Source: Tamarix chinensis
Lineage: Eukaryota; Streptophyta; Magnoliopsida; Caryophyllales; Tamaricaceae
Length of the DNA: 64,000 nucleotides
Direction of reading: 5' to 3'
Assembly: GCA_030549775.1 (NCBI GenBank)
Contig: CM060175.1
Span: forward strand, 3,782,564-3,846,563
Shown: one piece after another, positions 17,365 to 54,430 of the stretch
Layout: every line of letters begins with the position of its first letter
Position numbering within the stretch: the first letter of the stretch is position 1
Made by a program: the position numbers and the translations under genes
Notes under the pieces: model-generated
The model's input: the letters and a program-made list of their open reading frames with translations, nothing else
What the model was told of the DNA's origin: nothing
Databases searched by the model: none

Positions 17365-17405
<41 letters not shown>

Positions 17406-20750: not shown

Positions 20751-20768
20751 TCCCCGGCAACGGCGCCA
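20751..20768 (-). other. Primer binding site, tRNA-Asp type
   Basis: Minus strand reads TGGCGCCGTTGCCGGGGA, complementary to the 3' end of plant tRNA-Asp. It lies five bases from the 5' LTR edge at 20774. This primer is the usual one for Athila-like elements. Confidence 0.9.
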
Positions 20769-20773
20769 AAAAT

Positions 20774-24229: not shown

Positions 24230-24838
24230 CAATATTATTAATAATAATTACTAATAATACTAACAATAATAAGAATACTACTAATAATAATAGTACTCAT
24301 AATAAGAATAATAATGGCTATAATGATAATAATGATGATAATAATAATTGAAATCGTAGTAGCATTAGTGATAGTAATATTACCGATAATAATAAAATAA
24401 TAACACAACCATAATCATCCTGATGATAATATCAATAATAATGATAATAGTAGAAGTAGTAATAGTGATGAAAATAATAATAATAATAATAATAATACAA
24501 ATAATGGTAAGAATACTAATAATAATAATAATAGAAATAATAGCAATGAGAATAATAGTTAGAAAGATAAACATAATGACACTAGTATTAACCATAGTAA
24601 TAATAATAGTAATGATAGCGATAATGATAGTAACAATAATAACGATAATAACAATAAAAATAAAAATAATCACATTAATAATAATAATAATACAATAGTT
24701 GTGGCAAAACTAAGCATAACAAAAATACTAAGGTAATAATATTAAATTATAATGTTAAGGATAATAACGATGGTAATAATCGATAAAATAATAAATGCAT
24801 TAAATACAACAACGACAACAACAAAAATAATAACAAAG

Positions 24839-24896
<58 letters not shown>

Positions 24897-25134
24897 TAGT
24901 AATAACAATAATAGTAATGTTGATAATAATAATAATAATGATAATAATAATAATATTAGCAACAACCTCATAACCATGATAATAGTAATAGTAACGATAA
25001 TGATAATAATAATAATAATGATGAGGATAATAATAATAATAATGTTAATCATACTAATAATAGTAAGAATACTACCATAATAATAATAACAAAGATAATA
25101 ACAACATCAGTCATAGTTAGAGTAATAAACATGG

Positions 25135-25215
<81 letters not shown>

Positions 25216-25280
25216 CAATAATAGTAATAATGATACTAATACTAATACTACTACTACTACTACTAATAATAATAACACTA

Positions 25281-25355
<75 letters not shown>

Positions 25356-25362
25356 CTAATAC

Positions 25363-25400
<38 letters not shown>

Positions 25401-25615
25401 GTGATAATAATAATAATACTAATAGAGATAATCATAATAACTTAACAAGGTTTTAGTATCAACTAATACCATTAATTAGAAGTTCTTGGGGGTAATATTA
25501 GGACCTAAGAATAATAATAAGGGTAGTAATAATAGTAATTATGATAGTAGTATTAATAATAATATTGATTACCATATCATTAATAATATTGGTTAATAGT
25601 ATTAAAATTTATTAA
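24230..25615. repeat. 1.4-kb (AAT)n-rich low-complexity block
   Basis: Long runs of AAT/ATA trinucleotides occur, including near-pure stretches at 24838-24895, 25135-25215 and 25280-25355, interspersed with AGT, ACA and GAT variants. Equivalent AAT-rich blocks sit at the same place in the other family-A LTRs (54900-55720 and 59080-60000). The long isoleucine- or leucine-rich ORFs on both strands are artefacts of this composition. Confidence 0.9.
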
Positions 25616-30646: not shown

Positions 30647-31183
30647 ATGAATGATCTCTTAATCTGCCCTAATCCTCACAGTCTCAATCTCTCCGTCATG
30701 CGCGAGAACGTTTCCTCTCCGATCCATCAGTCTGAACCTCAACCCACCTGCATTGAAACTGTTCGCAACGACGAGAGCACCCAAAACACGGAACTCATCG
30801 AAAATAGAAAAGACCCAGTTGAAAATGGAAGCGAGAAGAATGAAAACAGCAAAAGTAATGGTAGCAGGAGTGATCCCAGGAAAAGTAGGAAGGAGAATAC
30901 TAATAAAGTGTATCATATAGTGAGACGGGAACGGCCATCTCGGGCCTGTACTGTACGGGCAGCTCAAGCTAAGCTTTCTGTGGTGCAGCCAGTGATCGAG
31001 AGGAAGACGAGGGCGCCGAAGAAGGGTAAAAATCAGAAGATTGAGGAATTAGAGGAAGAGGAGCCTGAGGAGCAATGCAGTAAAATTGTGACGCCCCTCC
31101 TCAATGAGCCGTCGCAGGCGCAGTTGCCGCGGTGGAAATTGAGGTCTATGTGGGAATTGGCTTCAATACTTAATTTTTTCAAT
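30647..31183 (+). CDS. DDR4: DDT-domain gene exon 1 (179 codons)
   Basis: Charged N-terminal region including a basic RRERPSRACTVRAAQAKL stretch and an acidic IEELEEEEPEEQ stretch. It ends in the first DDT helix (RWKLRSMWELASILNFFN). Donor is AAT|GTTAGT, phase 0. Without splicing the frame runs on to 31270 with no domain sense. Confidence 0.85.
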
Positions 31184-34100
31184 GTTAGTATGATAAAGAA
31201 TTTATCTATTCCTTTGTGTTTTGGTTGGTATTTGGTGGTATGCTTGAATTTTAAGGTGACTAAAGTTTGATTCTTCTTTGTTTTGGCGGTTTAGGTATTT
31301 AGGCCACTTTTAAATATAACGGTGGACTTCACGGCAGAAGAGTTGGAGACAGCATTGTTGACTCCTAACATTACGTTGGGTGACGTTCATATTCCTTTGC
31401 TAAAGGTTGGTTCCTTGAGTTCATGTGTTTGTATTGGATAGGTGTCATGTTTTGATGGGTTAGTCAACAAACTAATATTTAGGAGGTTGAATTCTTAATA
31501 CTTGTGATCCACGACGGATGTTAATGTACATGTTTTCCGAATCTCTCATAAAGTTGAGCTGAACAGAAAGTTTTTGTGCTAGCCATTAAATGTACGGAGC
31601 AAGCATCTGTTGACTATAGTATGTAAAAAGGGGCGATAGATTCCATCTTGTGGGCATCGCCATTGTGGTGGAGCTGTTTTTGGGCCCTTCTCTGTTTGCC
31701 CTAGCTTATGTGAAGGACCCAGAAATCCTGCATAATTGTGGTTGTTGTATGGACCTATGGCAGCATATAATAGATGATCTGCATTTACATTTTCCCTTTG
31801 AAATCTTTTTTCTACTCATATAATGATACAAATATTGAACTGATCACTAGAATCATGATGTTGGACAATGCAATTCTACTTGATAGAGTAACCAGTTGTT
31901 TTATGACCAGTCTGTATGCTTGAAATATGGTGTCATTCTATCAGAAAAACAAGTTTGTCCTAAAATATATATTCATCGATCTCCTTTTTTAACTCATTCT
32001 CAGGTTTCTATGAGGAAAAACTAGTAGCTGTCAATGAAATATTTAGTGAATGCAGGAGCGGTACACACATACAATAAATGAACACTACTCTCTTTTGGTG
32101 AGAACTGAGAGCTCAATATTAACCGGTAGATCAAAGATAAATGGATGGGATTATCGATACTGCTAAAGTAGAAATTACTCTGACAAAAAACTATCCCTAG
32201 GTGGCTAAGGATATGATTAAACATATCATATAATCAAGTATGCACAACTCTGTCACATATGATCAAGTTAACATCCGCGACAAGCACATTTGAAGTAAGC
32301 TCTTTAACTTCATGAGGTTCAACATTTAGCTCAAAATCCTTGTTAGTGACAGTTTGTTTTGCTGTTAACTTTGAACTCGGTTTCTGACTATACAATGGCT
32401 TTTAACATATCATCTCTAAAGCTCGTCTTTAAATATACTTTATCTTGTTCTACCAGACCTTAGTGATTGGTGAGAACTTGATGATTAGGAAGTCCAAGAT
32501 AACACTCTGGGATCTAGGATGGTCTAGGGCAAAGAATGATGGGAACATGACAAACTTAAAGTTGAAGGCTATGAATTTCTGAATCATAGAAAATAAATTT
32601 GACTCAACAGCCTCTTCAGAATCTAATTTGCCCTTAGCTGCAACTTGAAGCACCTCTTGTCCTTGATCTTTATGGCATTTTAGTTCAAAAACTCTATCGC
32701 ATATGCTCAGCAACTTGGAGCATGCACGTGTGATCAGGTTAACATTTGCTGCAAGCACACTTGAGGCAAGCTCTTTAACTTCAATGGGCTCTACATCTAG
32801 TGCCTGGTCCTTATTAGTGAAGGGCAAGCTTGTTGTCTTTATAATTAACTCGAATGCCTGTTTGAATGTTATGAGAATCCTCAAACGTTGTGATTTTCTC
32901 CTAATTGTTGTGATGAAAAAAATACTTGCTTCAGGCTCTTAGACGTCAAGGATAATACATGTTAACAATTTACTCCAACAGTGACCTATGATTGAAATCA
33001 TGAAACTCCTTTTATTCAATTTTGAATTTTTTTTCCCATTTCATTCTACCTTTTCCCCATTTTTTTTTAAATAGTCATCACAGCTAAAAAACTGACAAAT
33101 CTGAATGATTAAAAGAAAGAAATGAATTATAGAATTTTCCATTAGAAGGATTTTGTGGACTCCTTGAGAAAGCAACAGTTATGAGCCATGACTGACAAAG
33201 AGGCTAATGCCGTCGTAGCAGATGATGTCAATGGGCAGGGAAGATGAGCATTGATTCATGTTCACAGAAACAAACTGCGAAACGCCATATAGGAGTGCGA
33301 AAAAAATATTTTAGAGGGAGGCTATGTTTAGGCAGTGTTATACGTCCGTTGCAGGCCAAGAGGTCCCACAGCATCTAGTCTATATCTATTATTAGTTTAT
33401 TATGATTTTTATTTATTAGCAGAACTTTTTTATTAAATAGGCAAGTCTTATAATAATAAATAGGCGTAGATATTGAATATTCAATTTAGGAAACTAGATT
33501 TAATGTAGTCACTATTTTCTTTAGGAGGAAAGAATATTTATCTTATTTAATAATGGCTTAACTTGTTAGTTTGTTGCCACTTGCCAAGTATAAATAAGAG
33601 GTTGAGACCTCAGTAATAAACAGGTTGAAAAATTAGTACTCTCTAAACAACCGAATCTCCTCTCTTCTTCTCTCACCTCTCTGTTGTTCAACATATATGC
33701 ATACACATGCATCCCCAATTGTCCTAATTAGTCTTACTCAATTCATGCTTTATTAATTCTAATTAGCTATAGTTGATTGCTATGGTGTACAGACACAAAT
33801 AACAAGAAAGGTATTAATAGAAATAGGAGACTAAGGACCTATCCAATAACAGGTCCTGAACCTGCTGTGGCTAGATCCTCGAGTGATTAATCTTAACAAT
33901 TAGACTTCAATTAGGGTTTGAGCTGTGATGAAGTAGATGACAGTTGAAGGCAAGCTGTATAGGTGGAGCACCAGATGCTATAGTAAGGATGGTCTCTCAG
34001 CGAAGCTTCTGCTGCTTTCTTTTTTGATGGCTAATCAACGATGGGCAAAGGCAAGGTTGTACCATACATAGAAGTTTGCTAGATTTGGGAGAATTTATTT

Positions 34101-37100
34101 TTGAGGATAGACTGTGAGGGTTGGACAGTGGACTCAGGAGTTATGCAATTTAGTTTTAGGACTAATTTGGTTTATTCTGGTGGTGGGTGGTCGAGTGCGG
34201 TACTGGTGGGTTGATGATGATAACTGTGTTGTCTGTTATTGTTTGCTATTTGGTGGTGATTCATTTTGGCACTATTGATGTGGTGGTTTTTGGAATATTG
34301 GTCTGCTGGTGGGGTTCGGCTTTAGGTGAGGTTCGTTCATTGATGGGTTGTTATGTGGTGGTGGTGTTTTGATTCACTGTTTCCGTGAATTCAGGTGATG
34401 GTGCAGTAGATGTGGTTATGTATGAAAGCTGGGATTTAAGACTCTGCAACTGATTTTGGCGAATGTTTTTGTGGGCATGGAGATCAAATTTGGGCTTTAT
34501 TGCTAAAAATGTTTTAGGGTTGGCAATTAAAGTTGGAGTCTAGAAAAGAAGATGGGATTTGAGAAAGGGAATGAGAAGAAAGAATCAGGGAAGAGGGAGA
34601 GGAGCAAATTTAATTATTTATTGAACCTGAAAGATGTAAGATGCTCTTGTAATTCATCATATTGATTTATGAAGTGGCAAACTATGTTTGCCTGTTCTTG
34701 TAATTGAGGTTCGGATGAAGCATGGAGCTAGCAAATTGAGTGAATTATTGAATCTGAAGGATATAAGATGTTCTTGTAATGCATTAAATTGATCTATGAA
34801 GCGGCAAACTATGTCTGTTCTGTCATGGTTGCTAGGCGACGACTGTTTTGTTGTTGATTGTCTAGCCTTTTCTCACACCTGACATGTGCAAGTATGTTGG
34901 TTCAGAATAACAGAAAAAAATGCCTTGACATTGTGCCCAAATCTCTCTCTTGTATGAAAATTGTAGGTATATTTTTTTCTGTAGCTGTTTATAATGCATC
35001 TAAGATAAAAAGGTGTATCAAGAATAGGAAACTTATTGTGTTTGAGCTGCTTGGTTTGCCAGTAGCTCTCTTCACCAAGTCTCATTATTGAGGATGCTGA
35101 CAGCGTTGAGTGAACTTTTCCTGTTGTGTAGCATTCAGCAACTTCACCCTTGCCTCTCTCTTTTTTGACCCCCTGGGGGGGGGGTTGCTGTGTATTCCAG
35201 TGCTGTAATCTCTTGCAGGACCCATGCTGATGTGGCATGCTTTGGAAATAGCAGAGTTTGATATTCCTGGAATATAAACAATGTACATCATTTGAACCAT
35301 ATAGTTGGTGATTCAATCTCTGCCCATTTGTTGAAAATGGATGCGAAATTTGTGTGATAAATTGAGTTTTTAGTTGTCATTCTTTGTTTTTTGTTGAATA
35401 TGACTCATAATTTAATATCAAATCTCCCAGGTTTGGCGCTTTACGTCGAAAGACTTTTTGTGGGGCTTTGGGCACTAGGCTTAGGGTGTGAACTATGATT
35501 CTCTCTGTGGATTTTAGGCTGCTCTGCCTCCCTTGTTACCTAAATAGAGCTTCCACTTAAAACACCCTCTTCTGCTCTCTATTATGCACTTAATTTTTAT
35601 AGCTTTACTTGCTCTATCAATATTGTGCCAACAGTTTGCCATAAGTTACGCTGAGATGAAGCATAACAAATTTCTTTTCTTTTGTTTTCTTTTTTGTTGG
35701 TGATAGTCAATACCACCAGTCACTAGGATGGCTTGTGGACGTGACACTTGGATCACGGTTTTGTGTCGAAAATTGAGAGACTGGTGGATTTGGGTGAGTT
35801 CTGTTCTTGAAGTTTTTTTTATAGACGATGACATCTTACCATAAGCTGGTCCCTTTTGTTTCACACCCTGTCCTTGGTACATGTGTTCTTGTTGCAGGTT
35901 GCTGAAGGAGAGGTTCCCATTGTTGCTTCTCATGGGTTGGTATTCAATTGATTTCATAGTTACTTGGTCTTGGTTATCTGCGAATAAAAAATTTCAATGG
36001 CTGATCTGTAGTGTGGAGATTGAAGCATACAAGCTGCTTGATCCAGGTTTTCGTGTCAAGATTTTGAAAGCACTATGCGACATTCGGGTTGAGGTGTGCT
36101 TTTAAGGTTATTAGTGTACATTTCTATCTTTGCTGTTTTGACTTCAAGTATTTTCTGATGCCTTGAATAGCACTTGAAAATAAATATTAAATCACTAATA
36201 CTTGCTGCAAAAAGAAAGAGAAATCCTTTGAACATCATGATCCTTACAAACATGTGAAAGAACCCTATAGGCTATAGGGGGTGAATAGGATTTAACAGAA
36301 TAGAAATGACAAATAACAAAATTTACACACAATGTAGTGGTTCAAGAGTAAATTACTCTCTATATCTACTACCCAAAGGTTCTTCCTTTTAAATTTTGAA
36401 TAAATGATGTGTTTTTATTGATGATCAATTTTCTCTTGGTTTATAAGTCTTACAATTTCAATGACCTTCTTAGAGAGGATTTATTACTTGACTTATTTAT
36501 CTTCTTTGTACTCTTAATAAGAATATCTCATTAGGCAAATATTCCCTAACCTTTTTATAATAAGTTTTGTAAGGTGGTTGTGATTACAATTGATTTTCCC
36601 TAAAAACTCAAGATATGAAAGTGTAAAACTTTAGATGAGATGTAATATAACTAGATGTAATCAAATATATTACAATTGTATAACAACTCTAGTTGAGAGA
36701 AGTAGGAATGAGCACTTTTCAATAAAAAGTTAAAATTTAAAAGTCGAGAGAGTTTGAATGAGCAATTGAATGATGTAAGAGTAGATGATTAATTGCATAG
36801 TAAATGTAGTTGAAATGTTATTTAATAAATGCCGAGGGAGTTTCTTTATATAGCTCACTCCCATCAGGTATTCATTGGACATGAAATGGCCAAAAAGCCG
36901 TATTGCCCAATGGATACTAAATCATCATTTAATACTTACCATTAAATTGGTATAGGCAAACCAGTTGGTTAATTGTACGATGGTCAAGTTTCAAACTAGT
37001 CGACTGAATATGTTCAAATCTGAGATGAGTAAGTTATTGTTACACAAACTAGTCAATTGGTCTCATGTTGTTCTTAGTCTTATGAATATATATAAATAGT

Positions 37101-40100
37101 GCCATGGTTTAGTAAATTGGTTGATGTGTCCTTTAGACCACTAGATTGGTTTAGCTAACCAGTCGATAAGTTTAAATAGAGAAAAATGGGTTTCGATAAG
37201 ATTGAAACAGTGGACTAGTTGGTCAAACTAGTCAATCGATTTTCAAGCTAGTCGATCGGTTTGGTAAAACCAGTCGATGAATTTAAACAAAGACAAATGG
37301 GTTTTTGGAGGAGCAAAACTTATGGGCTAGTTGGTCAAATTAGTCTATTGGTTTGGTAAAACCAATTCATAAGTTGTAATAGAGGCAAATGGGATTCTGT
37401 AAAAGCGAAACCTATGGACTAGTTGGTCAAATCAGTCATTCAATTTTGTGAAACTTGTCGATGAGTTTTAATATAGATGAATGGGTCTTTGCAGAAGCAA
37501 AATTCAAGGACTAGTTGATCAAATCAGTCGATCAGTTTGATAAAATCAGTTGATCGGTTTGCTGCACCGGCTAATCCATGTTAAGTTTTACTTGTTTTAA
37601 TGCCCTATGTTTAAACTAGGCTAGTCAATTGACTGGTTTTGACCGGAATCAAACAGGATTTAAAACACTTTGGAAGGATATAGAAATCTAGATCAATCAT
37701 GAATTCACATAAAGTGAATCCAAGTCAAGTGCTTAGAAAACTTTTTAAAAAGTTTTGATTAAAATATGAAATTGTTCAACTTGACTCTTTACATCAAAAC
37801 CTAAGACTTAGAAATATAATCGTTAAATCTTAAGTTTTGGTTATCTTCATATGATCATCTCTTATGCTTTAAAACTTGATTGCGCTTTTAAAATTTGAGT
37901 AAGTGTGATTTGGTCTCTTTGTTTGTCAATCATAGCTCATTCACACTTAAGCAAATACGTTACTTCTCTAAATTCATTTGTTATCATGAAATCAAGGACA
38001 AGGACATTATTCGACTTACGAGGTCAACAACATCCGTTCATATGGTAGCTATATATGCATGCTTGTTTCAACGGTAGTGTTGTTTAGGTCAAGCATATCC
38101 ATGACCAAGTATATTTGCTTGTAAAATCAGTTAGGTTTGCATGCTGGTCAAATCGCCTATTGTTAGTTGTCAACTATGATTGTTTCTATGTGATTCACCA
38201 AAATAGGGTGATTTGTTTCTTGTTTAAGGGAGCCTTTCAGCTCAATATCTTAAGTGGCGGAGCATGAGCCAATGATATTTTATTCTGCACTCAAGATGTG
38301 TTTGACAATCAGGATTAATGTGATGTCAAGTGCTTGTCAGTAGTTTGCCATCTGGATGTTTAGAAGGGCCACTTCAATTACAATTGTAGACGTAACCTGT
38401 AAAGCTTAAGTTGTGGGTTGTAGAGCTTGAAGGACAAATATTTGTTTATCTTTTCAGGATGGTAAGAATCATTGCGCATGAATCACTGTTTTTGAGGAGC
38501 GGGGAGTGGAGGTGGTGGCCGTCCCTTGTCATATTTGTTCGTAATTGACAAAATCAAAGGCTTACCAGCCGACGTATCTTTGTAAATATATTTAGTTAAA
38601 TGTCATTAAACAAATAAACATTAGGGTTGTGTCAATAAAGGAGGGGCTCTTAAGATATTGATATTAGGCTTTTCGGTCAAGATTATGAGGACCGCCACCA
38701 GATTCTTAGTTGCTCCATCAAGGCCAAAGAGTAGGCTGATTTATTGTGTTGACTAAGCCTTTTTGATTAACGTTTGCCAATTCCTGAAGTTGATACTGAA
38801 GATTTGATAGTTTTGCTGACAAAATGTGCAGCAAGAAGACATCAGGAGCTATATTGATAGCTCCATCAAGCATGGTGCTCAACTTTCGGTTTTCCGTAAA
38901 GAAAGAATTGGTGGTGATTCACAAGGGATTTCCTACTGGTAAAATAATGTAGTTTGTTATAATACAATATTTTTGTGCTTGCAACATTTCTGTTTACTAC
39001 AGTGTAGCTAGGCAGACATCAGTTGGTTTCTTCTGTAATGTTTGAACATAAGCATGACTGTATATCATGATTTTTCAACTTTTGACTCATTTTTTATAGG
39101 TATGAAGATGATCCCACTATTGGTCACAGGTTGTACAGGGAGATAAGAAAAGTTGAGGTGAAAGTAGTAAAGAGTGGGAAGACAAATGATTCACCGGTCC
39201 TTCCCAGCACAACTTATGAGTGGCAAGCAGTGGCCACCAATTTGGATGAGTTTCTAGATGTTTCTGTAAGTGTTCTATAAGCATGCTTGTGTTACATAAG
39301 TCTTCTCTCTCTGTTTGACGGCCTTTTATTATTGGACATGAATGTTTTACCTGTCTCAAGCGTCTACAAATTGATTCTTTTGTTGTTTCCATCAAGCTAT
39401 TGTTTATATGTTTTGAATTTTCAACATGTTGTGAGTCTTCACATCTGATGACCATTAGTTTTATTGATCTATCTTTTTGAGCATCCATGTTTCCAATCAT
39501 ATCATCTTTCGTCCTCTCCCACTTTTTTTCTCTTTTTATTGTTTCCGTATAAGACAGTTTTTAGGCAGCTTGCCAGACCACTTGAAAATTTTGGTATAAT
39601 GGTGCTGGTCTGAAATGTTGGATCCTTAAATGTTTTCATTGATGGCTTAGTGTTAAGGCCTTCTAATTAATAAGAATGATTGCATATGCGTTTGTCATTT
39701 GTCATTGTATGAATTTCTGTTCACACTTTCAGCTTTGTAGAGGACATTTTTCTCTGTACTATTGAAGATGGCATGAATTGTAGTGGGTATGGGCATCAGG
39801 ATGTATAGTTGGTGTTCCTTTCACAATGCTTTTCTGACTTAAATTTGACATCCCAAAATAGCAGTTCCTTGTTCAAATTAGAGTTTTTCCTGTTGAGCAG
39901 TATTTATTGATGTTACATGGACTGGATCTTGTATATACTTTTCAGTAAAAAATTGTTTTTATTACTCTGCTCTTATTGAGAAAGCACATGCAGTAAGGAG
40001 GAAATTCATGGGTTCTAAGATTGTTTTCTTGTCATGCAAAGCGTTTTTTTTTGGGGAGTTGATACATTTTTCTGTTGCTGCAATCTGGCAATAATATTGT

Positions 40101-41374
40101 TGTACTAAAATATGACATTTTTGGGGTTAGTATTGGAATATGACAAGTTAGATGAAGCATAGGTGAGCAAGTGGATTGTTCTTTTTTTTGGTATAGGGGA
40201 GGTCCAAAGTGTGGGGTATGGCAAGTGACCCCTTGTTATGCTGTATCTGAAACATGTCTGACATGGAAACGCGTATAGAAACATGATTTTCCATTTCCAA
40301 AATGTTTTGGGCAAAAAACATTATAACTTCAACCCAAAACAACAAACATAATGCTACCTATATTCCAATTTTGGTTTGACATTGCTCCACACCCAAAAAA
40401 ATAAAAAAACCAGCGATGTCTGAGTTCAACTTGGAGATGGAAATATTCTTTTGTTGCTCGGCAGTAATGTGAGTCAGAACAGGCTGATAGGATCTCCTTT
40501 TTTTTGCCCTGTCATCAGGCTAGTAGTTTGAGTCCATAAGCTTATTGGAATGTAGGCCCACATGCTTGTAGATATACGTCTTTTTGGAGGTCTTGTAGGA
40601 TCCAAGAGTGTTATTTAGTAATTGTTATCTTTTACCATCGACCTTAGTTTATTTTTTAGTGCTTAGTCTATTTAAATATATGTCATTATTTTTAGAGTTG
40701 AAAATTTTAGTATGTGGTTTCTAAGAAACCAACGGCTAAGGCTGTTTGGACGGAGAATTTTAGAAATGAAGGGATTTGGAAAATGATAGAATTTTTAAAG
40801 TGCTTCACTTTTAAAATTCTATGGTTATAAATCCATTGTTTGGATAAAGATTATGAATAAAAGATTTTTAAACTTCCTTGTTTGGATATTTTTATAAATG
40901 GAATTAGAATAGAGAATTTATAATACTACCTAGTTTTTTTCAAATTTATTGTATAATATAAAATTACCTATAGAAGTAATATAAAATTACCTATCTAGTT
41001 ACCGACAGGAATTTATATATGGATATTTTTACCTATAAAATTATGTAAAAATATTATAAACTCATTGTATGAATCTAATCAACCTGTTACCAAGGTTTGT
41101 AAAATCGTTGGTCACAAATAAAAGAAGTCGATGTTTCATATCAGCGGTGGCCAATGATTATTATGCTTGCGACAATTCTATCGATAAACTAATAAAAAAA
41201 AATAACAGTAACATAGAAAAAAATGCGTTAATATAATAATATTACTTAAGAACACTATATATATATAAATTAAAATTTTATCAAGCTTTTAATATAAACC
41301 TTCTTGGATATTTTCATACCACAGATAACACTATACATATATACATATACATATATACATATACGCACACACAT

Positions 41375-41407
<33 letters not shown>

Positions 41408-41890
41408 TACATATATATGCATATATATATAAGTATATTAAAAATAAATTAAAATTTTATCAAGCTTTTAATATGCTCATTCTTTCGTAAAAAATATTCA
41501 AAATCTTTCTCGGATTATTTTCAGACTATATATATATATAAGTATATTAAAAAAATAAATTTAAATTTTATCAAGTTTTTAACACACGCATTCTTTCGTA
41601 AAAAAGACTCTGAAACATTCTTGGATTATTTTCATACCACAGATAACACTATACATATAAATACACATACATACACACACACACGCGCGCGTGCACACAT
41701 ATACATAAATACATACATAGTATATATATTATATATATATATATATATAAAAGTATATTAAAACATAAATTAAAATTTTATCAAGCTTCTAATATACACA
41801 TTCTTTCGTAAAAAGTACCCTAAAACTTTCTCGGATTATTTTCATACTACAGATAACACTATACATATATATACACAAATGTGTATTCAT

Positions 41891-41937
<47 letters not shown>

Positions 41938-44900
41938 AGTATATTAAAAAATAAATTTAAATTTTATCAAGCTTCTAATACACACATTCTTTCGTAAAAA
42001 GGATTATTTGCTGATAAATTAAAATTTTCTCGTATTATTTTCATACTACATATAAAATTTAGTTGTAACATCTGTCGGATTTTTCTCACCATCTATTTGC
42101 TGCAACATCTGTGTGTCATTCTACACACACACAACCCATCTGTACTGGAAACATTCTATTTGTAATATATTCATCCAGCTACAATATGCATATCAAGAAT
42201 TCGTGAAATATGCATATCCAGCATATACTTTCAAACAGCCTTTAAGAACAAAATCTTCCATTCATTGCTTCATGACAGAGTTAACAAAGGTGTTAACTGT
42301 AATATTAACAACACTAGAATTAGTATGAAAGATAGAAATCAACTCAATATAGTCAAAATGGTCTTCAACAAGTTCATAACATTTTGAGACAAATACTAAG
42401 GATTATCATTTGTAGATACGAGTAAGAATAAAACCTTTCTTCCTCTCTGGCATAAGTTGTTTCAGCAGCTTAAACTTGCTTTCATTTTCAAGAAACCACT
42501 CACATGCCAATTCTTTATCATCATCATTTAATCCTTCGATATAATTTATTTCTTCAAAAATCTCTTCTACTTCAATCTTCTGGACACACTTTTGAAAGGA
42601 GAGAGCTACTGCTGCCATAGATTGTTCAAACGAGTCATTGAATTCCTTTCTTTTTGCATTTATCAAATAAATTCTCCATCCATTCCTAACACTCCTCAGT
42701 CCAATTAACCTAATCAAATACATATTTTCTACCTAAAGGCAATGTGACCTAACTCTCTAGATAAGTTACAACCTACAGAGCACCTAGTAGTTTCAAAACT
42801 TGAGCAATTGTATTCCCATGTTAGCATCATGATACCATCGACTTCAAAAAGAAAATTATGATCACACACAAAGCAAAAGTAATGAAAAAATGTAATTTAA
42901 TTTCAACAGTTGGAAAGTATATATAATTTACATACCTCAAAAAGGTATATACAGAAAAAAAAAGAAAAAAACCTCTTCAATCAAGTAGCACGTCTAGCTT
43001 GGTATTCTTCAAACATGTTCATTGCCAAAGTATCACGAAATGTAGTCCACTCATTAGTTACTCGTAAGTGTGTGATTTCTTCTTGGTTGCTCTCATTTAT
43101 CGTTGTGGGTTCTAGACTAGCAATCTCATGATCAACATCGTCCAAATTTTGGCACTCTTGATTTTCTAATATTGGGTCAATTGCTTGTTCTACCCGCACA
43201 AAATTATGCAACACACAAGCAGCATTGATAATTCTTATCTGCATCTTTATATCGAACCCAAAAGTATCATTCAAAATAGCCCATCTCTTTTTCACCACTC
43301 CAAATATTCTTTCAACACAATTCCTTGCTTTTGCATGGCGAAGGTTAAATAACTCTTTGAAGTTTTGTGGAGTATTTCCTTTACATTCATTAAGATGATA
43401 TCTAGTCCCTCGATAAGGAGCTAGAAAACCCGGTCCATTCGCATATCCCACATCCACAAGATAATATTTATCTACATGAAAAAAAGTATAATTTCTTATT
43501 CAATTGTAAGAATATAAATGTCGTACATATATAAAATAATAAGTTGTCAATAATTACCGGCTGGAACGTGCATCCGATTCCGTCTAGTTAAGACGTCACG
43601 CAAAACTCGAGAATCAGATGCAGAACCCTCCCATCCAGGTAAGACTTATACGAATTTCAAGTTAGGGTCACACACTCCTAATACATTGGTTGTAATAGTG
43701 CCCTTTCTATTTCGATATCTTGATTGGATGTTAATTGGTACATTAACCGGCACATGAGTCCCGTCAAGTGCTCCAATAGCATTCCATAGAATATATATAA
43801 AAGGAAACAATGATATAAGCATCATGAGAAGGGAGATTTATTTCTATAGGAAACTGGATATGAGTAATACCTCAAATCACTTCCATCTTTCCACATCAGG
43901 ATTGTTAAGGACATAGTCACGCCTCCTTATGTAACGACCGTTCACTTTCATAATTGCTAGCAATACTCTATGAAACTGTCGACTAATTGTTTCAATAGAC
44001 CGCTTTAGACACTTGTGCATTAACCTATACTTCAAGTTATGAGCAAGGATGTATAAGAACATTGCCACTGCGTCTGTGATGGACACATGCCTTGTTTGAA
44101 CCAACCCACCCTCCTCTTCCAAGACTTTGCACAAGTGCAAAAATGCTTGTCTACTCATCCGCAGTTGTTCAGTAGCATCAATATCAGTCCTGTACAAGCT
44201 ATAGATAAAACTTCTCCTTGTATTCTCACGCCCAGGTGATGGTTGCCTTATGATAACTCTGCAAGTAGTAAAGCTCTCAGTATAATAACGTTGGGCAGCA
44301 GAAATAATAGTCATCATAGCCAAAATAATCACTTCCTTTTCCTGATTCTTCTCCTCAACTCCACGTTTCCTTTGAATTATGTCCATATCTTCTAAGACAA
44401 ATTAAAAACATAGTGTTTCTCAGACAAAATTATATATATAATATAAAATGTAGTTAGATATTAAGTACCACCATATTTTTCTCACACTCTCCCCATTGTT
44501 CTTGACCTCTATATTTAAACCTCAAAAGCTACATTTCATGATCTTTTCTCAGTATTTACTTCCTCCTTCCCCTCCCCCTTACCATACCATACCAATTCTC
44601 TCTCTCTCTCTCTGCATTTTAGAGAACCTTGATTAACAGAGAAAGGTTCAGTGATTTAAGTGATTCATTTATATATACAAATGCTGGTTATAGGTGGAGC
44701 AATTAAGAATCACATAATCGTATATCCAAAAATCCAGCAGCAAGCATATATAACTTTAATCAGTCATACGAGCACGACTACACGGCCAATCATCAACCAA
44801 ATCAATATAGTGAGAAAATAGAAGCTAAGTATCGAAACTAAACTGAATATGTGAACACACCTTACATAATTAAGTGCTTTTAATATCAATTAAATGCACT

Positions 44901-47900
44901 TTTATTAACGATCGTCCAGCAAATATGGCTCATGTGCACTTCAATTGACTAGATACACACAATCAATAAATTGGCCAAACAGTGAAAGAGTTGATATCGA
45001 TCGAGTAGATGAAATTCATGGCAGTGGTTGGTTGGTTAGGGTTTTCTATATGCACACCCCTTCCTCTGCTCTGATTTGTTTGGTTCAAACACCCCTTAAA
45101 TCCTGCTGGTGGAGTCGCCATTGGCTTGGGTTTAAGGGGTGTTTGAACCAAACAAATCAGAGCAGAGGAAGGGGTGTGCATATAGAAAACCCTAACCAAC
45201 CAACCACTGCCAAACCCTAACCTGCATCATTTGTCGCTGTCGGATTTTCACCGATCGTTAGATCTCGCTACCACTACTATTTTTCCTTTGTCCTCTAGGT
45301 GCACATTGGTACTCGAGGGAATGTTCTTTCATCCTAAATGCTATTTACCCATTTAGTTATTAGGTTTTCTTTTATTTTGTAAAAAAAAAAGGTCAGATCT
45401 AGAAAAAGTTGGGTATTTTTTTATTGTTATTATCATTCCTATTGTCAAGATGGTAAAATATGAGGTTTTGATGTTGCAACTTAAGGTTGAGAAATTAGTT
45501 GTAGGCTTGACTTGATAGACTGAAGGCTACCATTATTGAGATCACTAAGTTTGTTCGTAATCTGGCAAATAGGTACTGGTTTGCTTCCTACCAGTTTTGC
45601 TCGGCTACAATTTAGGATTAGAATGCTCTAGCTCCAGTTCCAAATACTACACTTATTCATCAACCACAATTCCCTCCTAACTATGATGAATATAATGTTC
45701 TATCTAATTTTGATGGAGAGGAAGACTTGGATAAGCTTTTTGAATGGTTAAACATGGCTGAAAAAAAATCTTTACATCCATAAAAGTTCGGGATGAAGAA
45801 AATATTTCTATGACTGCTACTTGTTTCACTAGATATGCTAGTATGTAATGGAGCAACCTGAATTATTGGTGCAGGTTCCAAAGTCTTGTTCCAGTTGTTG
45901 ATTAGGGTCAACTACGACAATTAATGGTTGATAAATTCACATCTGTCAGCTAAGAGCAGGAATTGCACTTTTGGTTTTGCAAGTTGTGTATGGACAATCT
46001 GGATGTTGAGACCTACACTTGGGAATTTCAGAAGCTTGTTGTAAGATGTGCTTTTGAAGAAAATTTAACATAGCAGGTTGTCAAATACTTAGGAGGCCTT
46101 CGTGAGGATATTGGATTCGAGCTGAATGATTAAGCCTCCTCTTAGTTGACCATACTGCTTTAGTTAAAAATGAGGTGGACTAGCTGAGTCCTCCCATAAG
46201 CCTAATGGTTCTGAGTGTATGGGATGGTATATCTGCTACAAGCTCAGTCATATGCATCAATATTTGCCCTGTCTAACATGAAGAAGCTATTAATAAGATT
46301 GGGATGGTTTAATCCAAGTCTCTAAAGCATGGAGCACAAGGAGATAACAATCAGAGAATTGAGGATGATGTTGTGGATCCATACGAGTATGCCGATGATG
46401 AAGTCGACATGGATCATCATTGTGCTCTCTTGCTTTGAAGTTTGTGGTCGAACTTTTCTTAAGTGGGAGAGAATGATGCAATCTATATTCCACTCCATCA
46501 TTAGACTCATAGATTCAGTCCATTAGTTTATTGGAAAGCAGGCTCATGTACCCACAGATATACCTTTTTTAATAGGCCACGTAGGTCTAAGAGTATTATT
46601 TGGTAATTATTATCTTTACTAATTACTTTATTTTTTTGAGTGATTATTCTATAAATAGGTACATAATGGGAACCTATGTGCATTATTATTTTCAGAGTTG
46701 AATATTATTAGTGTATGGTTTGTGAGAAACCGAAGGTTAAGAGTAGCTTACATCATAGTAGAAGTATACAATTAAACATCGGTCCTGATATGCAATATTG
46801 GCTAATATTTATTGGCACGGAATTAATGATACGCAACTGTTTTAGAATTTCACGTATTTATTAGTGATATATCGGTTATCAACCGATATTTATCAATATT
46901 TACTAATATTTGTCAATATTTGCTGGGACAAAAAAATTTGTCGCAACAACTGGGACATTTAAAATATTGTTTGCTGCACCTGATACCACGACACAGCGAC
47001 CACAACGTCAGTTCTTGCTGGAGGATCTTGCTGCCACAGTGCCGCTTGTTGCTTGTTTGTTTATTCCCAGCTTTAGGTTTCTTCTACACTAGGCGTGCTG
47101 GTAATTTTCATCTTTGCTGGCTTCTTCTTGGTGCCTACTCACAGATACTCTCAAAAGCGGTGAGTGCTCCGCCACCTTCACTGTCACAGTCCCTCCCTTG
47201 TTGGAAGTTGGTGATAGTTTTGTGATAGAAATCTAGAATGAAGGAAGCAACAGCAATGAGGAGGATGAAGACAGAAGCATTAAGGGGGCAATTTTGAGCC
47301 TTTGGGCAGGGGAATCATATGAGGTTTCTTAAATTAGGATTCAGAGTATCGATGGAGCCCACAGACACTGCTATCTTTAATTTTTTTTATTTTATTTAAT
47401 TTGCTTTTCTGTGTCATTTATCTTTTAAATTCTCTAGTAGCAATATTGAGTTATGGTAGAACCATATTATTGGGTTAGTTCATGGACTAGAGTTTTATTT
47501 ATAGGAAAATTTACATAGTAAAGTAAAAACCTTAAATTTAACATACAGAGTAAGTTTTTCCCTGCATTTTCTATCATCCTCGTTATCCTCATTTCTGTGT
47601 CCCCATCCATGTGCAACCTAAGGGGTAGGTTAGGCTTGTACTGGTTTTGAGATAGTGTCTGCTGCTTGCAGGAGAAGCTTTTTGCGAGCAAAAATCGGAC
47701 AGAAGCATCCTTGGGGAAGAAGTTGAAGAATGATATGCTTCCAGAAATTGAGAAGGAACATAAGGTGAGTTATGCAAGCTTCTCTTTATGTTCACAGCTT
47801 TGCTTCCTGTGAATGTTACCAGGCTTCCTGCACTGCACAGATACTTCTGTATGTCTTTTATCTCTCTTCCCAGTAAACTGGATCATGGTTTTGTTGTGCA

Positions 47901-50124
47901 GAGGAGGGAGAGGCTTCTTAAAAAACAACACAGGCAAGCTCTCATGCTCGATAATTATGTAGCCATGGACGGTTTAGCTGGTGGACGCTCTCTTCGTGAT
48001 AGGAAGCCTGTAACTTACACATTCGGTAAGGCTTTTATGGCTTCTGACATATAAAATTTGTAAATAACAACTAATGGTTTGTAGTTTCTTTGATCATACT
48101 ATTGATTTTGAGTTGTTGGTTGATGTGATTGATGTTTAGGATAGCATTGGGAGTAGAATCCTTTTTGAGAGATTTATTTGTGTAACTATAAATATTCATT
48201 GGATGCAGTAGGGAAGTTTGATTGGTTGGGGATTTTTCCATGTCGATCATAGTTTGTTCTGTTTTTTGGATGGATCAAATGATAAAATTACCATTTTGGG
48301 CTCTGTATCTTTCAACTTGGGTATAATAGTTGGCAAAACTGTTTCATTGTCTTTTGATGTCACTCTTGCAGGCTGCATGACAGATTGAACTTCATCCACC
48401 ATTTACAATTACAAGTATATAAAGTTATAAAGGAGGTTCCTATTCCTGTTGATCATCTTAAAGAAAACACAGTAAAATTAATGTGCGGATACAATTCTAT
48501 ACTAACATTTAAAAGTTGTTTGGATGGATACGATATCTGTTCAAAAAGTAAATTTCTTATGAATGCTTCTGTTATTTCATGTGTAGTGTTCTGCATGTGT
48601 TGCTATTCAACTATTCATCTATGTAGCCTGGTGATTGGTTCCCTCTAAATAATCTGTTTATTTGTGTTCACAAATGTGCACTTTATTTTTATGTTTCATT
48701 TCGTTTGCATTATACTTGCTTTCTGCTCGATGTGGAGGCCCGTATGGCATGCATTACATAATGAGCATTGCCAAGGTCCCCTTCCCCTGAACCTTTCAGG
48801 CCCTAACCTGTATATTTTCTATCATCTTATAGATGATGGATATCTGACTGTTCTTGTCTGATTGTTATGCAGATGATTTTGATCGCTCCATCAATGAGGC
48901 TATCAAGATAACAAAGTATGGGTTTGTTCTCTAGGACCATGCATTATTTATGTTGATTGAAATTTTGTGCAAAGTTAATTTTAGTCGTGCATGTTTTTTC
49001 TTTCTTATTGCCCCACAAACAGGAAGAAGCAACATTCTCCGGAACCCACGTTTAGAAGAGAACCTGGAACTAGATCTGAGCCTTCTATGAATGGAAGATG
49101 GAATGGTCCTTTTCAGGCCCCCCAGGTTCTACGTTTTGATGTCCCACCTCCTATGAACTATGATGAATTTGAAGAGGATTCTAAACCACTACAGCCTTTG
49201 GATCGAAGGTTACTTCAGTTCATTGAGAATTTCTGGTTTTTCACCTTATGTTGTTATTATAACAATTATTATTCTCTTTTTTGATGGATTTGTTTCTTTG
49301 TTTTGATGTATAGCAACCGGAGAAGACAAAGACCACAACGTTATTCAGAGAAAGAGTTTGTTGAACTATTCGAGAATGAGCGAGAGGATTTTGATAGTGA
49401 TGATGATATTGTTGGGGAAGCAGTCTATGATGAGGAATATTTAAGGAAACGTAAACGGGTGAAAAGGCTATCAAGTTGCTCAGAAGGAGAGGATGAATAT
49501 CAATGGACTGATGAAAATATAGAAGAGGAACAAGTAGATATGTCGAGCATGAGCGAAGGCAGTGACAAGCCTCGAAGTTCTAAGAAATTGCCTTCCCGCC
49601 CCAGGAGAGAAACCAAATTGAGATCTGTTGGCAAGCTTCAGACAGAGTTGAGGCGCAGTAGACGGTCTACTAGAAACCGTATGGACTATCGCCAATATGA
49701 GCTGTCTGGATCAGATACGGAGTGTATCAAACGAGAGAAAGCCAATGTATCTTACCAAAATTTAGATGCAAGTGATCACGTAGAAGAGTGCTTGGTGGGG
49801 AGCCCAGAAAGAGATTATTCTGAAGGCGAAAAAGAGAATGATAGGGAGGAGGCCCAGCAGCAGCATCCAATTGGAGCTGACCAGCCACCGTTTGGTGGCA
49901 ATGGGTACGGCCCAGACACCAGCAGTAGTATGGCTGAGAAAAAGCAGGAAGGGTAGCCAACCTCTGCAGGTGTAGTAAATAGTAATAGTCCAAGTGAAGA
50001 TGGAGGTGGTAATCAAGTTGGGAAGAGACGGTTTCTTGACCTCAATGAGCTAGCACCTGGTTCTGGTTTTGATGATGGATCCAGTGCATTGATGAAGGAT
50101 AAAGAAGTTAAAGGCGACTTCTAA
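30647..50124 (+). CDS. DDR4: DDT-domain chromatin protein, DDR4-like (12 exons)
   Basis: Hand-built model: 30647-31183, 31295-31405, 35707-35793, 35898-35935, 36012-36093, 38832-38938, 39100-39265, 47672-47764, 47902-48025, 48873-48915, 49023-49208, 49314-49956 (to TAG) or to 50124 (TAA). All introns are GT-AG and all phases join. The frame gives 738 aa to the TAG, or about 793 encoded residues if it is passed. N-terminus: low-complexity, charged. Residues about 160-216: DDT domain (WELASILNFFN-VFRPLL ... TAEELETALLTP ... VHIPLLK). Residues about 217-380: WHIM-like region with RDTWITVLCRKLRDWW, ILKALCDIRVEQEDIRSYID and GHRLYREIRKVE. Then a basic segment (LLKKQHRQALMLDNYVAMDG, GGRSLRDRKPVTYTFDD) and an acidic/basic tail. 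In Arabidopsis, DDR proteins are described as ISWI (CHR11/CHR17) partners in nucleosome spacing; nuclear location is inferred. The TAG before a conserved-looking LDLNELAP tail is odd. An alternative start is Met18 (30698). Confidence 0.87.
31295..31405 (+). CDS. DDR4: DDT-domain gene exon 2 (37 codons)
   Basis: Acceptor GCGGTTTAG|GTATTT, donor CTAAAG|GTTGGT, phase 0 at both ends. It encodes VFRPLLNITVDFTAEELETA and then LLTPNITLGDVHIPLLK, the core of the DDT domain. Confidence 0.9.
32244..32865. repeat. Diverged direct duplication in intron 2
   Basis: ATGATCAAGTTAACATCCGC ... AAGTAAGCTCTTTAACTTCA (32260-32311) is repeated as GTGATCAGGTTAACATTTGC ... AGGCAAGCTCTTTAACTTCA (from 32728). Both are followed by a GACAG/GGGCA-AGTTTGTT segment. 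The spacing is about 470 bp. The second copy lies in a 144-aa minus-strand ORF (32450-32884) whose product, with ELASSVLAANVNLITRACSK, I do not recognise. It may be a fragment of a processed host sequence. Confidence 0.6.
33340..33790 (+). mobile_element. Possible solo LTR or LTR fragment (Copia-like)
   Basis: GTATAAATAAGAGGTTGAGA at 33590-33609, followed by CCTCAGTAATAAACAGGTTG and a CT-rich leader (CTCCTCTCTTCTTCTCTCAC), is the usual look of a plant Copia LTR promoter and R region. A TGTTATACG start at 33337 is plausible. I could not place the other end or a target duplication. Confidence 0.3.
35707..35793 (+). CDS. DDR4: DDT-domain gene exon 3 (29 codons)
   Basis: Acceptor TTGGTGATAG|TCAATA, donor GGATTTGG|GTGAGT, phase 0. 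It encodes SIPPVTRMACGRDTWITVLC then RKLRDWWIW, the start of the WHIM-like region. Confidence 0.9.
35898..35935 (+). CDS. DDR4: DDT-domain gene exon 4 (38 nt)
   Basis: Acceptor TTGTTGCAG|GTTGCT. Donor CATGG|GTTGGT, chosen because it alone keeps phase with exon 5 (phase 2). It encodes VAEGEVPIVASH and most of a Gly codon. An alternative donor 4 nt downstream (GGGTTG|GTATTC) would break the frame. Confidence 0.8.
36012..36093 (+). CDS. DDR4: DDT-domain gene exon 5 (82 nt)
   Basis: Acceptor GATCTGTAG|TGTGGA, donor GTTGAG|GTGTGC. It encodes VEIEAYKLLDPGFRVKILKA then LCDIRVE, a well-conserved motif of plant DDT/WHIM proteins. Confidence 0.85.
36094..38831 (+). other. Intron 5, 2.7 kb, repeat-filled
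   Basis: No host exon. From about 36253 (CCCTATAGGCTATAGGGGGT then GAATAGG) to about 38240 (TTTAAGGGAGCCTTTCAGC) it has the look of a dispersed plant repeat inserted in the intron. CTATAGGGGGTGAATAGG is a common start of such elements. Its middle is the ACTAGTCGA-type array at 36940-37580. Ends and target duplication are not established. Confidence 0.5.
36940..37580. repeat. Tandem ACTAGTTGGTCAAACTAGTC array
   Basis: Units begin GGACTAGTTGGTCAAACTAG at about 37213, 37327, 37416 and 37509 (spacing 114, 89 and 93 bp), with partial units before. Each carries AGTCGATCGGTTTGGTAAAA and an AAATGGGTTTTTG-type spacer. The words CTAG, TCGA and GATC make each unit rich in short palindromes. Related words occur at 8150-8490, 9730-9850 and 10225-10345. 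Confidence 0.8.
38832..38938 (+). CDS. DDR4: DDT-domain gene exon 6 (107 nt)
   Basis: Acceptor ATGTGCAG|CAAGAA, donor CTACTG|GTAAAA, phase 2 at the end. It encodes QEDIRSYIDSSIKHGAQLSV then FRKERIGGDSQGISY and part of Trp. Confidence 0.9.
39100..39265 (+). CDS. DDR4: DDT-domain gene exon 7 (166 nt)
   Basis: Acceptor TTTTTATAG|GTATGA, donor GTTTCT|GTAAGT. It completes Trp and encodes YEDDPTIGHRLYREIRKVEV ... TTYEWQAVATNLDEFLDVS, the second WHIM-like motif with its conserved GHRLYREIR. Confidence 0.9.
40520..40740 (+). repeat. Left copy of a diverged direct repeat (probable old LTR)
   Basis: TGAGTCCATAAGCTTATTGG ... AGAGTGTTATTTAGTAATTG ... TTTTAGAGTTGAAAATTTTA ... TGGTTTCTAAGAAACCAACG parallels 46500-46740 in the same order and orientation. 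With the gag relic just before the right copy, the pair fits an old LTR element of about 6.2 kb that received later insertions. It ends next to GGCTGTTTGGACGGAGAATT at 40740, which may be the end of a separate Harbinger-type insertion (TAA just before it). Confidence 0.5.
41265..42058. repeat. Five-copy tandem array with embedded microsatellites
   Basis: A core of about 90-110 bp (TAAATTAAAATTTTATCAAG, CATTCTTTCGTAAAAA, CTCGGATTATTTTCATACC, AGATAACACTATACATATA) starts at about 41266, 41445, 41556, 41766 and 41953. Between cores lie dinucleotide tracts of different make-up: ATAC/ATAT, TA, CACACGCGCG, and pure (CA)n at 41896-41930. The cores are clearly related; the tracts vary freely in length. 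Confidence 0.9.
42406..42723 (-). pseudogene. PIF/Harbinger ORF1-like fragment (Myb/SANT-type protein)
   Basis: A 105-aa frame. Its end (EGLNDDDKELACEWFLENES then KFKLLKQLMPERKKGFIL) resembles the C-terminal segment of the Myb/SANT-like accessory protein of plant Harbinger elements, where a helical DD-x-x-L-x-A-x-x-x-L-x-x-N pattern precedes F-x-x-L-x-x-x-x-R. The N-terminal Myb domain was not found. It lies 258 bp after the transposase remnant on the same strand, the usual pairing. Confidence 0.45.
42981..44386 (-). pseudogene. PIF/Harbinger transposase, broken
   Basis: Three pieces in order on the minus strand. 44386-43877 is the N-terminal part with a helix-turn-helix region (LRMSRQAFLHLCKVLEEEGG; ITDAVAMFLYILAHNLKYRL). 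About 43786-43558 carries the first catalytic Asp in GALDGTH, then RYRNRKGTITTNVLGVCDPN. 43471-42981 carries the second Asp in YYLVDVGYANGPGF and the Glu in NCVERIFGVVKKRWAIL, completing the DDE_4 triad. Probable introns lie between the pieces (donor GCCG|GTAATT, acceptor CATGTAG|ATAAAT). Two stops interrupt conserved positions: TGA at 43877-43879, where a Trp is expected after RWK, and TAA at 43646-43648, inside KFV-x-VLPGWEGS. The catalytic residues survive but no full protein can be made. Confidence 0.85.
45020..45211. repeat. Perfect 81-bp inverted repeat with 30-nt loop
   Basis: The left arm 45020-45100 (GGCAGTGGTTGGTTGGTTAG ... CACCCCTTAAA) and right arm 45131-45211 (TTTAAGGGGTGTTTG ... 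CCAACCACTGCC) are exact reverse complements over all 81 bases. The loop 45101-45130 is TCCTGCTGGTGGAGTCGCCA followed by TTGGCTTGGG. The host transcript would carry it as a long fully paired hairpin in intron 7. The two ORFs over it (44945-45220 + and 44963-45199 -) share residues because of the symmetry and are not genes. Confidence 0.97.
45440..46410 (+). pseudogene. Decayed Ty3/gypsy gag relic
   Basis: Read with frame changes it gives PPNYDEYNVLSNFDGEEDLD-KLFEWLNMAEK, VRDEENISMTATCFTRYAS, RQLMVDKFTS ... EQELHFWFCKLCMDNLDVET and YLGGLREDIGFEL. These follow the order of the plant gypsy retrotransposon Gag domain. Numerous stops (for example after KKSLHP and in the ASM-stop-WSNL stretch) mark it as dead. 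It sits immediately 5' of the right direct-repeat copy. Confidence 0.7.
46500..46740 (+). repeat. Right copy of the diverged direct repeat (probable old LTR)
   Basis: TCAGTCCATTAGTTTATTGG ... AAGAGTATTATTTGGTAATT ... TTTTCAGAGTTGAATATTAT ... TGGTTTGTGAGAAACCGAAG matches 40520-40740. A TATA-like CTATAAATAGG at 46650-46660 followed by a leader is consistent with an LTR promoter. It lies directly 3' of the gag relic, so pol is missing. Confidence 0.5.
47672..47764 (+). CDS. DDR4: DDT-domain gene exon 8 (31 codons)
   Basis: Acceptor CTGCTTGCAG|GAGAAG, donor CATAAG|GTGAGT, phase 0. It encodes EKLFASKNRTEASLGKKLKN then DMLPEIEKEHK, a helical charged segment. Confidence 0.9.
47902..48025 (+). CDS. 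DDR4: DDT-domain gene exon 9 (124 nt)
   Basis: Acceptor GTTGTGCAG|AGGAGG, donor ACATTCG|GTAAGG (phase 1). It encodes RRERLLKKQHRQALMLDNYV then AMDGLAGGRSLRDRKPVTYTF, among the most conserved stretches of the family. Confidence 0.9.
48873..48915 (+). CDS. DDR4: DDT-domain gene exon 10 (43 nt)
   Basis: Acceptor GTTATGCAG|ATGATT, donor AACAAA|GTATGG. It encodes DDFDRSINEAIKIT and part of Lys. The 847-bp intron before it carries no recognisable element. Confidence 0.85.
49023..49208 (+). CDS. DDR4: DDT-domain gene exon 11 (186 nt)
   Basis: Acceptor CACAAACAG|GAAGAA, donor GATCGAAG|GTTACT (phase 2). It encodes KKQHSPEPTFRREPGTRSEP ... PPPMNYDEFEEDSKPLQPLDR, a low-complexity linker. Confidence 0.85.
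49314..50124 (+). CDS. DDR4: DDT-domain gene exon 12, with internal in-frame TAG
   Basis: Acceptor GATGTATAG|CAACCG, continuing phase 2 from exon 11. It encodes NRRRQRPQRYSEKEFVELFE, an acidic DSDDDIVGEAVYDEEYL motif, a basic LRRSRRSTRNRMDYRQYELS stretch and a Gln/Pro-rich tail. TAG occurs at 49954-49956. The same frame then stays open for 55 codons (PTSAGVVNSNSPSEDGGGNQ ... GKRRFLDLNELAPGSGFDDG ...) to TAA at 50122-50124. The LDLNEL motif is EAR-like, and a tail of this kind is expected in the family, so the TAG may be a truncating mutation, a base error or a read-through site. Confidence 0.85.
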
Positions 50125-53779: not shown

Positions 53780-54430
53780 ATTTCACTTCCATGCAAAACC
53801 CTTACTCCACCATGCAAACCCTAATACCACCATACAACCATTAATACCACCATACAACCATTAATACCACCATGCAACTATTAATACCACCATGCAAACC
53901 CTAATACCACTATACAACCATTAATACCACCATGTAACCATTAATACCACCATGCAATCCCTAATACCACTATGCAACCATTAATACCAAAAGATTCATC
54001 CATACCAAACCCTAAATTCAAACCATAAAGATTCATCCATACCAATCCTACATTCAATCCTTACAAAACCAAATATTCATCCTTACCGAACCCTAAATTC
54101 AAACCATATAAAACCAAAGATTCATCCATAAGAAAAAATAAGTTATATTCTCCCAAACAAAACCATAAATTAGATTATCCCTTATAAAACCATAAATTAT
54201 ATTCTCCCACACAAAACCATAAATTAGATTCTCCCCAATAAAACTATAAATTATATTCTCCCACATAGAACCATAAATTAGATTCTCCCATATAAAACCA
54301 TAAATTATATTCTCCCATATAACACCATGAATTGGATTCTCTCATATAAAACCATAATTTAGATTCCCTTATATAAAACCATAAATTATATTCTCCCACA
54401 CAAAACCATAAAAATCATAAATCATATTCT
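53780..54430. repeat. Two adjacent short-period arrays
   Basis: At 53800-53990 a 20-bp unit (CATGCAACCATTAATACCAC, alternating with CATGCAAACCCTAATACCAC) is repeated about nine times. At 54130-54430 a unit of about 27 bp (TATATTCTCCCACACAAAAC then CATAAAT) is repeated about ten times. Both arise from the CATGCAAACCCTA words present singly near 23500 and 58420 in the other copies, so the expansion is specific to this copy. Confidence 0.85.

Follow-up and report, generated by a model that had tools for sequence, protein, structure and literature searches.

The question raised by this locus is how an intron of a plant gene came to hold a long inverted repeat whose arms do not differ at a single position, and whether the hairpin has any use. 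Within the window, i.e. the whole stretch of 64,000 nucleotides of Tamarix chinensis DNA that was analysed, two arms of 82 bp pair perfectly around a 30-nt spacer:

Positions 45019 to 45100, + strand: left arm of the hairpin, 82 bp, from the inverted-repeat comparison.
Positions 45101 to 45130, + strand: loop, derived from a LINE.
Positions 45131 to 45212, - strand: right arm, the inverted copy of 45019-45100, ending in the complement of 45019.

Inward of the arms, one mismatch (45101/45130) is followed by two further pairs, which extends the stem to 85 bp at 99% identity. Over the 86 aligned columns formed by the arms and their inner edges there are two differences, at 45101 and at the unpaired 45104, and none among the 82 columns of the arms proper. 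The RNA hairpin has a computed folding energy of -183.2 kcal/mol, compared with -65.4 for shuffled sequences (sd 5.4; n=200), which corresponds to a z of -21.9. No second inverted repeat with perfect arms of 28 bp or longer and copy starts less than 2 kb apart was found in 225,494 scanned bases made up of the window and 24 fetched, partly overlapping loci (L009-L032), which represent the surroundings of LINE copies and not random DNA; arms with at most 10% GC or only two letters were left out of the scan. The window contains no N bases.

The gene around the hairpin was mapped by tblastn with three long relatives (P0092, P0093 and P0096), whose alignment gives approximate coding stretches on the + strand at 30650-31405, 35707-35799, 35898-36008, 38814-38939 and 39089-39265, and further ones at 47666-47764, 47899-48024, 48872-48916 and 49021-50121. 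The best long relatives are proteins of Ancistrocladus and Nepenthes, and several of the named relatives carry the name DDT-domain protein DDR4. Because the mapped coding stretches border the interval of about 39266-47665, the hairpin lies within an intron:

Positions about 39266 to 47665, + strand: intron of the DDR4-like gene that holds the hairpin, 8.4 kb, from tblastn.

The earlier note had described arms without mismatch around a 30-nt loop in intron 7 of a host gene. The flawless arms, the loop and the intronic position all stand, but the arms measure 82 bp and not the 81 given there, and the intron is the sixth by the visible coding exons; the number seven would need an additional 5' exon. 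Being an inverted repeat, the locus yields the identical hairpin from either transcribed strand. If the intron is transcribed, a double-stranded RNA stem of about 85 bp would form, and would make a plausible Dicer substrate.

As to what the arms are made of, when the genome was searched with 45000-45230, the window and at least 39 other places came up, each in two rows (40 of 64 candidates scored). At all 39 other listed places only one unit is matched, within query positions 15-140, i.e. the left arm and the loop; the other row of each pair shows that stretch again, matched by the other arm. The two arms occur together at none of these 39 places. Twenty of them were fetched and aligned, and at none of the 20 is there an inverted partner of more than 60 bp within 2.5 kb; the remaining 19 were judged from the search rows. 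Instead of a target-site duplication, the left outer end of the hairpin is a microhomology junction between a PIF/Harbinger element and a LINE. Direct repeats of at least 14 bp are not reported in 44000-46200, and inspection of the hairpin ends by eye revealed no shorter target-site duplication. The outer flanks show no inverted similarity beyond chance: their best inverted score is 18, where shuffled sequences reach 35. Judged by the places listed, the hairpin is not a MITE, nor does it belong to a family of hairpins with many copies.

Similarity among the compared LINE copies mostly extends far past the unit, often for kilobases. The relative L021 carries frames matching DUF4283 (E 1.1e-30) and RVT_1 (E 7.6e-8), together with an endonuclease match below the cut-off. 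From these matches, we take the family to be a plant LINE of the L1 type, with the unit inside ORF1. Copies L020/L030, L021/L029 and L022 (on C12 and C1 of G000) are 98.9-99.6% identical over 3.2 kb, and ORF1 frames of 510 aa are present in L021/L029 and L020/L030, each pair being one place; this identity and these frames suggest that the family was recently active. In the window, the LINE contributes the following stretch:

Positions 45018 to 45131, - strand (LINE sense): LINE ORF1-derived stretch comprising the left arm and the loop, from the genome search and the alignment with 20 copies.

Its outer limits can be set at about 45014-45132, and 45131 is either templated by the LINE or the first copied base. 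The unit retains a stop-free ORF1 reading, PKPMATPPAGFKGCLNQTNQSRGRGVHIENPNQPTTAMN. The exact donor copy was not found among the matches listed, the closest of which are 91% identical over 117-118 bp. The arms differ from the nearest copies, L009 and L010, at 6 of 82 positions each and from one another at none; the 32 loop-side columns, two of which belong to the right arm, show 5 and 7 differences from the same copies, a rate above that of the arms. Every state of the arm and loop is present in at least one of the 20 aligned LINE copies except that at 45101, at the border of the loop: the left unit reads T there, and the right side C, like 19 of the 20 copies. Two sites stand out as private in the alignment, 45101 and 45132 (T), of which the latter lies in the right arm and is not counted for the LINE unit. 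As only 45101 lacks a counterpart in the 20 copies, capture and duplication were presumably close in time: the sequence comparison suggests one or no substitution since the duplication, and almost none between capture and duplication.

These results bear on three further points of the earlier note. Its view that no TIR-type element explains the hairpin and that flanking duplications are lacking agrees with the single-unit copies found elsewhere and with the want of direct repeats of at least 14 bp around it. The search for single-arm copies that it proposed has brought at least 39 of them to light, and with them LINE ORF1 as the source family. Finally, it had attributed the perfect arms to recent origin or active homogenisation. 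Recent origin is borne out by the absence of arm differences, and homogenisation need not be invoked because the 20 LINE copies between them show every state seen in the arms. Assuming substitution rates between 1.3e-8 and 4e-9 per site per year, neither measured for Tamarix chinensis, 0/82 differences would place a loose upper bound on the age of about 1.4-4.6 million years.

Two other readings of the repeat were considered and rejected. The inner arm ends (TTTAAGGGGTGTTTGAACC) are not a pair of PIF/Harbinger termini that point away from the loop, as their sequence is that of LINE ORF1; the PIF end in relatives reads AGGCTATGTTTGG, unlike the inner arm ends. Nor is the hairpin the remnant of a longer, decayed palindrome taking in the loop, which is unduplicated LINE sequence.

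The left flank belongs to a transposon of another kind, of which the following parts were recognised:

Positions 40739 to 45017, - strand: PIF/Harbinger copy that lacks its right end (5' with respect to the transposase); its left end is tentative.
Positions 42981 to 43499, 43646 to 43837 and 43877 to 44386, - strand: PIF transposase pieces, split over several frames.
Positions 42406 to 42732, - strand: presumed ORF1-like piece of PIF, labelled by eye.

The frame at 42981-43496 matches PF13359 (E 3.9e-13) and that at 43877-44398 has no Pfam match; 43646-43837 is presumably also a transposase piece, on inspection by eye. The left end near 40739 is marked by a weak TIR-like match only (E 0.70). 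Over its full 614 bp, the stretch 44400-45013 matches 13 other places at 87-95%, and parts of it match still others (31 candidates scored, the window included). We take it as the likely 5' side of a PIF/Harbinger element, with the transposase adjoining it on the - strand. All seven of the other copies read continue past the point at which the window copy breaks off: GATGAAATTC is followed directly by TC and by some 480-560 bp more, to end in CCAAACATAGCCT. After this end comes TTA in three of the seven copies, and TAA, TAG, TAG and AAC in the other four. In the window, GATGAAATTC is instead followed by ATGGCAG, so that PIF halts at ATTC and the LINE continues. At the corresponding point, 13 of the 20 LINE copies read ATTCATGG. 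As ATTC is common to the native PIF and LINE readings, it constitutes a 4-bp microhomology:

Positions 45014 to 45017, + strand: ATTC microhomology, followed by TC in PIF (7 of 7 copies) and by ATGG in the LINE (13 of 20 copies).

No convincing match to the missing PIF right end, of about 0.5 kb, was found in 45213-47600, where the best hit has an E of 0.013 over 17 bp. Three marks of a repair scar thus coincide here, namely sequence lost at the junction (the PIF right end), microhomology at the primer-template junction (ATTC) and an insert copied from elsewhere in the genome (LINE ORF1, at no fewer than 39 other places).

On the other side of the loop, two features are needed to follow the argument:

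Positions 45128 to 45131, + strand: GGGT, possible fold-back microhomology with 45100-45103, suggested by the alignment.
Positions 45213 to 45621, + strand: right flank, not recognisably the missing PIF end on comparison with PIF relatives.

The right arm ends 1 nt short of 45018, the first LINE-templated base, and does not enter PIF. A later duplication would have had no reason to stop at the edge of PIF, whereas the copying of a newly synthesised single strand up to the double-stranded end of the chromosome would. The reverse-complement tract itself is clear, but its GGGT microhomology depends on a wobble or on an ancestral C. Positions 45100-45103 now read ATCC, with one G-T wobble against GGGT, and would have read ACCC if 45101 was C; unless one or the other is allowed, the strict fold-back microhomology is 1 bp. 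At the far end of the right arm, AAACCCTAACC occurs at 45187-45197, within the arm, and again 25 bp further at 45212-45222, from the last base of the arm into the flank. These are its two + strand occurrences, with no others on that strand in the window. The repetition may mark the right junction or be due to chance. Farther to the right, at 45622-46200 on the + strand, a decayed stretch resembles a Ty3/gypsy gag as judged by eye; the frame at 45622-45780 has no Pfam match.

Observed directly are a hybrid of two transposons, a source family that carries the unit singly, a native PIF that runs on past the point of breakage, a microhomology at the join and an inverted copy that does not extend beyond LINE-derived sequence. 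We consider it probable that the hairpin is the scar of one DNA-break repair event that combined a deletion, microhomology-primed copying of a LINE and snap-back self-copying. The PIF/Harbinger copy in the DDR4-like intron would have been broken, with the loss of its right 0.5 kb or so, and the remaining end, terminating in GATGAAATTC, would have annealed through ATTC to LINE ORF1 sequence. Copying of the LINE might then have proceeded for about 114 nt before the strand was released. The new strand would have folded back on itself, GGGT pairing with ACCC or ATCC around a loop of 24 nt, and have served as its own template for 81-82 nt, as far as 1 nt from the PIF/LINE junction, before a final join to other DNA at 45213. 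What we infer from the structure is the order of these steps, the enzyme involved (polymerase theta, or a repair of the SDSA type) and the kind of join made on the right. A snap-back of 81-82 nt is long for polymerase theta, which counts against this account.

Parallels have been published. In human inverted duplications, a spacer accompanied by 2-8 bp of inverted microhomology is reported at 13 junctions (PMC3907307), and in yeast strains whose MRE11 and SAE2 are intact, the loops of foldback hairpins have a median size of 36 nt (PMC7467729). The Tamarix hairpin resembles such foldback inversions in the spacer between its copies and in the possible short inverted microhomology at the fold-back, and its loop size is near the yeast median. 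It differs from them in that only 82 bp were copied, confined to the templated filler and joined to DNA on the far side. The human duplications, as described in that report, moreover have spacers of kilobases, against tens of bases here, and a dicentric chromosome stage.

Closer to the present case, polymerase theta is described as copying both in cis, by snap-back, and in trans, with a median insertion of 7 bp in one assay (PMC4912351). In Arabidopsis it leaves templated fillers from other molecules (PMC10923293). According to a figure legend, snap-back accounts for a minor part of such scars (PMC5068794). The deletion, the microhomology, the templated insertion and the presumed copying in cis at our locus are all shared with fillers left in plants by theta-mediated end joining or SDSA. 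Unlike the fillers reported at rice transposon excision sites, which accompany deletions and measure 1-123 bp with an average of 13 (PMC4423477), the insert here is of about 195 bp and includes an 82-bp perfect self-copy. The combination of a LINE filler and a snap-back hairpin in an intron is not described in the titles and abstract openings among the matches listed.

Rather than in a single event, capture and fold-back could have taken place in two, a LINE fragment being inserted first and duplicated in inverted orientation separately and later. As the source copy was not found, some of the differences from known LINEs could indeed be changes that arose in place. Yet just one state of the unit is missing from the 20 LINE copies, and the halt of the inverted copy 1 nt from the edge of the captured piece would have to be a coincidence if the events were separate. 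We regard a two-step origin as unlikely.

A repair scar might nevertheless have been put to use, and a silencing function, which concerns use and not origin, is compatible with an origin by repair. The locus would then be a newborn Mu killer-like locus or proto-MIRNA, whose intronic hairpin is diced to 21-24-nt RNAs, silences LINEs in trans and has been kept for this reason, a proposal that we find doubtful. The position of the hairpin in the DDR4-like intron and its perfect stem (z -21.9) speak for it, as do the matches between the arm and its potential targets: 10 of the 20 LINE copies read have one or more exact 21-mers in common with an arm, 9 of the 20 have one or more exact 24-mers, and in all 20 copies some 21-mers match with at most two mismatches. 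The 98.9-99.6% identity of L021 to L022 and L020 suggests recent LINE activity. In addition, inverted duplication of transposable-element sequence has been described as one way in which plant miRNA genes arise (PMC3237417). On the other hand, the remaining 10 copies have no exact 21-mer in common with an arm, the arm covers only 82 bp of ORF1 and the window has no Rfam match. The perfection of the arms is uninformative about selection because the hairpin is young.

Transcribed endogenous inverted repeats are reported to resemble young MIRNA loci and to be processed by DCL2, DCL3 and/or DCL4 (PMC12825306). The closest functional parallel is the maize Mu killer locus, in which a portion of mudrA, duplicated in inverted orientation, brings about the silencing of MuDR; the authors of that work themselves argue that the active agents may be antisense transcripts that cannot form large hairpins (PMC3440606). 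Like Mu killer, the Tamarix locus is an inverted duplication of a transposon coding region, in this case LINE ORF1, and its potential hairpin RNA is complementary to its own family. Mu killer, however, as presented in that work, involves about 1.3 kb of mudrA and its silencing was established by genetic test, against 82 bp of a LINE here. With the MIRNA genes described as born by inverted duplication, the locus shares a near-perfect, young fold-back and arms that match other sequences of the genome (PMC3237417); unlike them, its candidate targets would be LINEs. A silencing function remains a hypothesis to which we give low credence.

The repair-scar origin and this possible use can be brought together. 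It is tempting to speculate, although we deem it improbable, that one snap-back repair provided a ready-made, Mu killer-like silencer in the intron, with arms as yet undecayed, which now gives rise to LINE siRNAs in trans. If so, a perfect hairpin directed against a recently active transposon family would have been created in one step inside a transcribed intron. The routes by which MIRNA or transposon-silencing loci acquire their hairpins are hard to see once the arms have decayed. The intermediate here is fresh and can be read stepwise, from the broken transposon and the microhomology to the captured LINE and its self-copy, and a repair route to new hairpin genes thereby becomes directly testable. 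Once an unexplained young MIRNA candidate, the locus is now best read as a repair scar whose steps are legible, and which is also a good candidate hairpin.

Of the other possible origins, twin priming of a LINE insertion is the one whose products the hairpin recalls, since it gives an inverted segment and then a sense segment, the very order found here in the LINE sense. A twin-primed insertion with overlapping inverted segments, trimmed later, is nonetheless very improbable. The match is internal to ORF1, with no adjoining LINE 3' end and its poly-A; the two segments terminate together inside ORF1; inspection by eye showed no target-site duplication; and the left side is a microhomology join to a PIF copy that lacks its end. 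An assembly or library fold-back artefact is hardly credible, because the flanks on the two sides are not inverted repeats of one another, the duplication is limited to the LINE-derived stretch and the left junction shows microhomology; the mismatch at the inner edge of the arms also speaks against it.

Other repeats are present in the window. A very young LTR retrotransposon at 15378-22528 has LTRs of 1755 bp (15378-17132 and 20774-22528) that are 100% identical, TG...CA ends and a 5-bp target-site duplication, GTGTA. An AAT array of 1.2 kb extends over 24231-25440, and minisatellite-like arrays with 20/60-bp and 27-bp units are found at 53789-53989 and 54138-54412.
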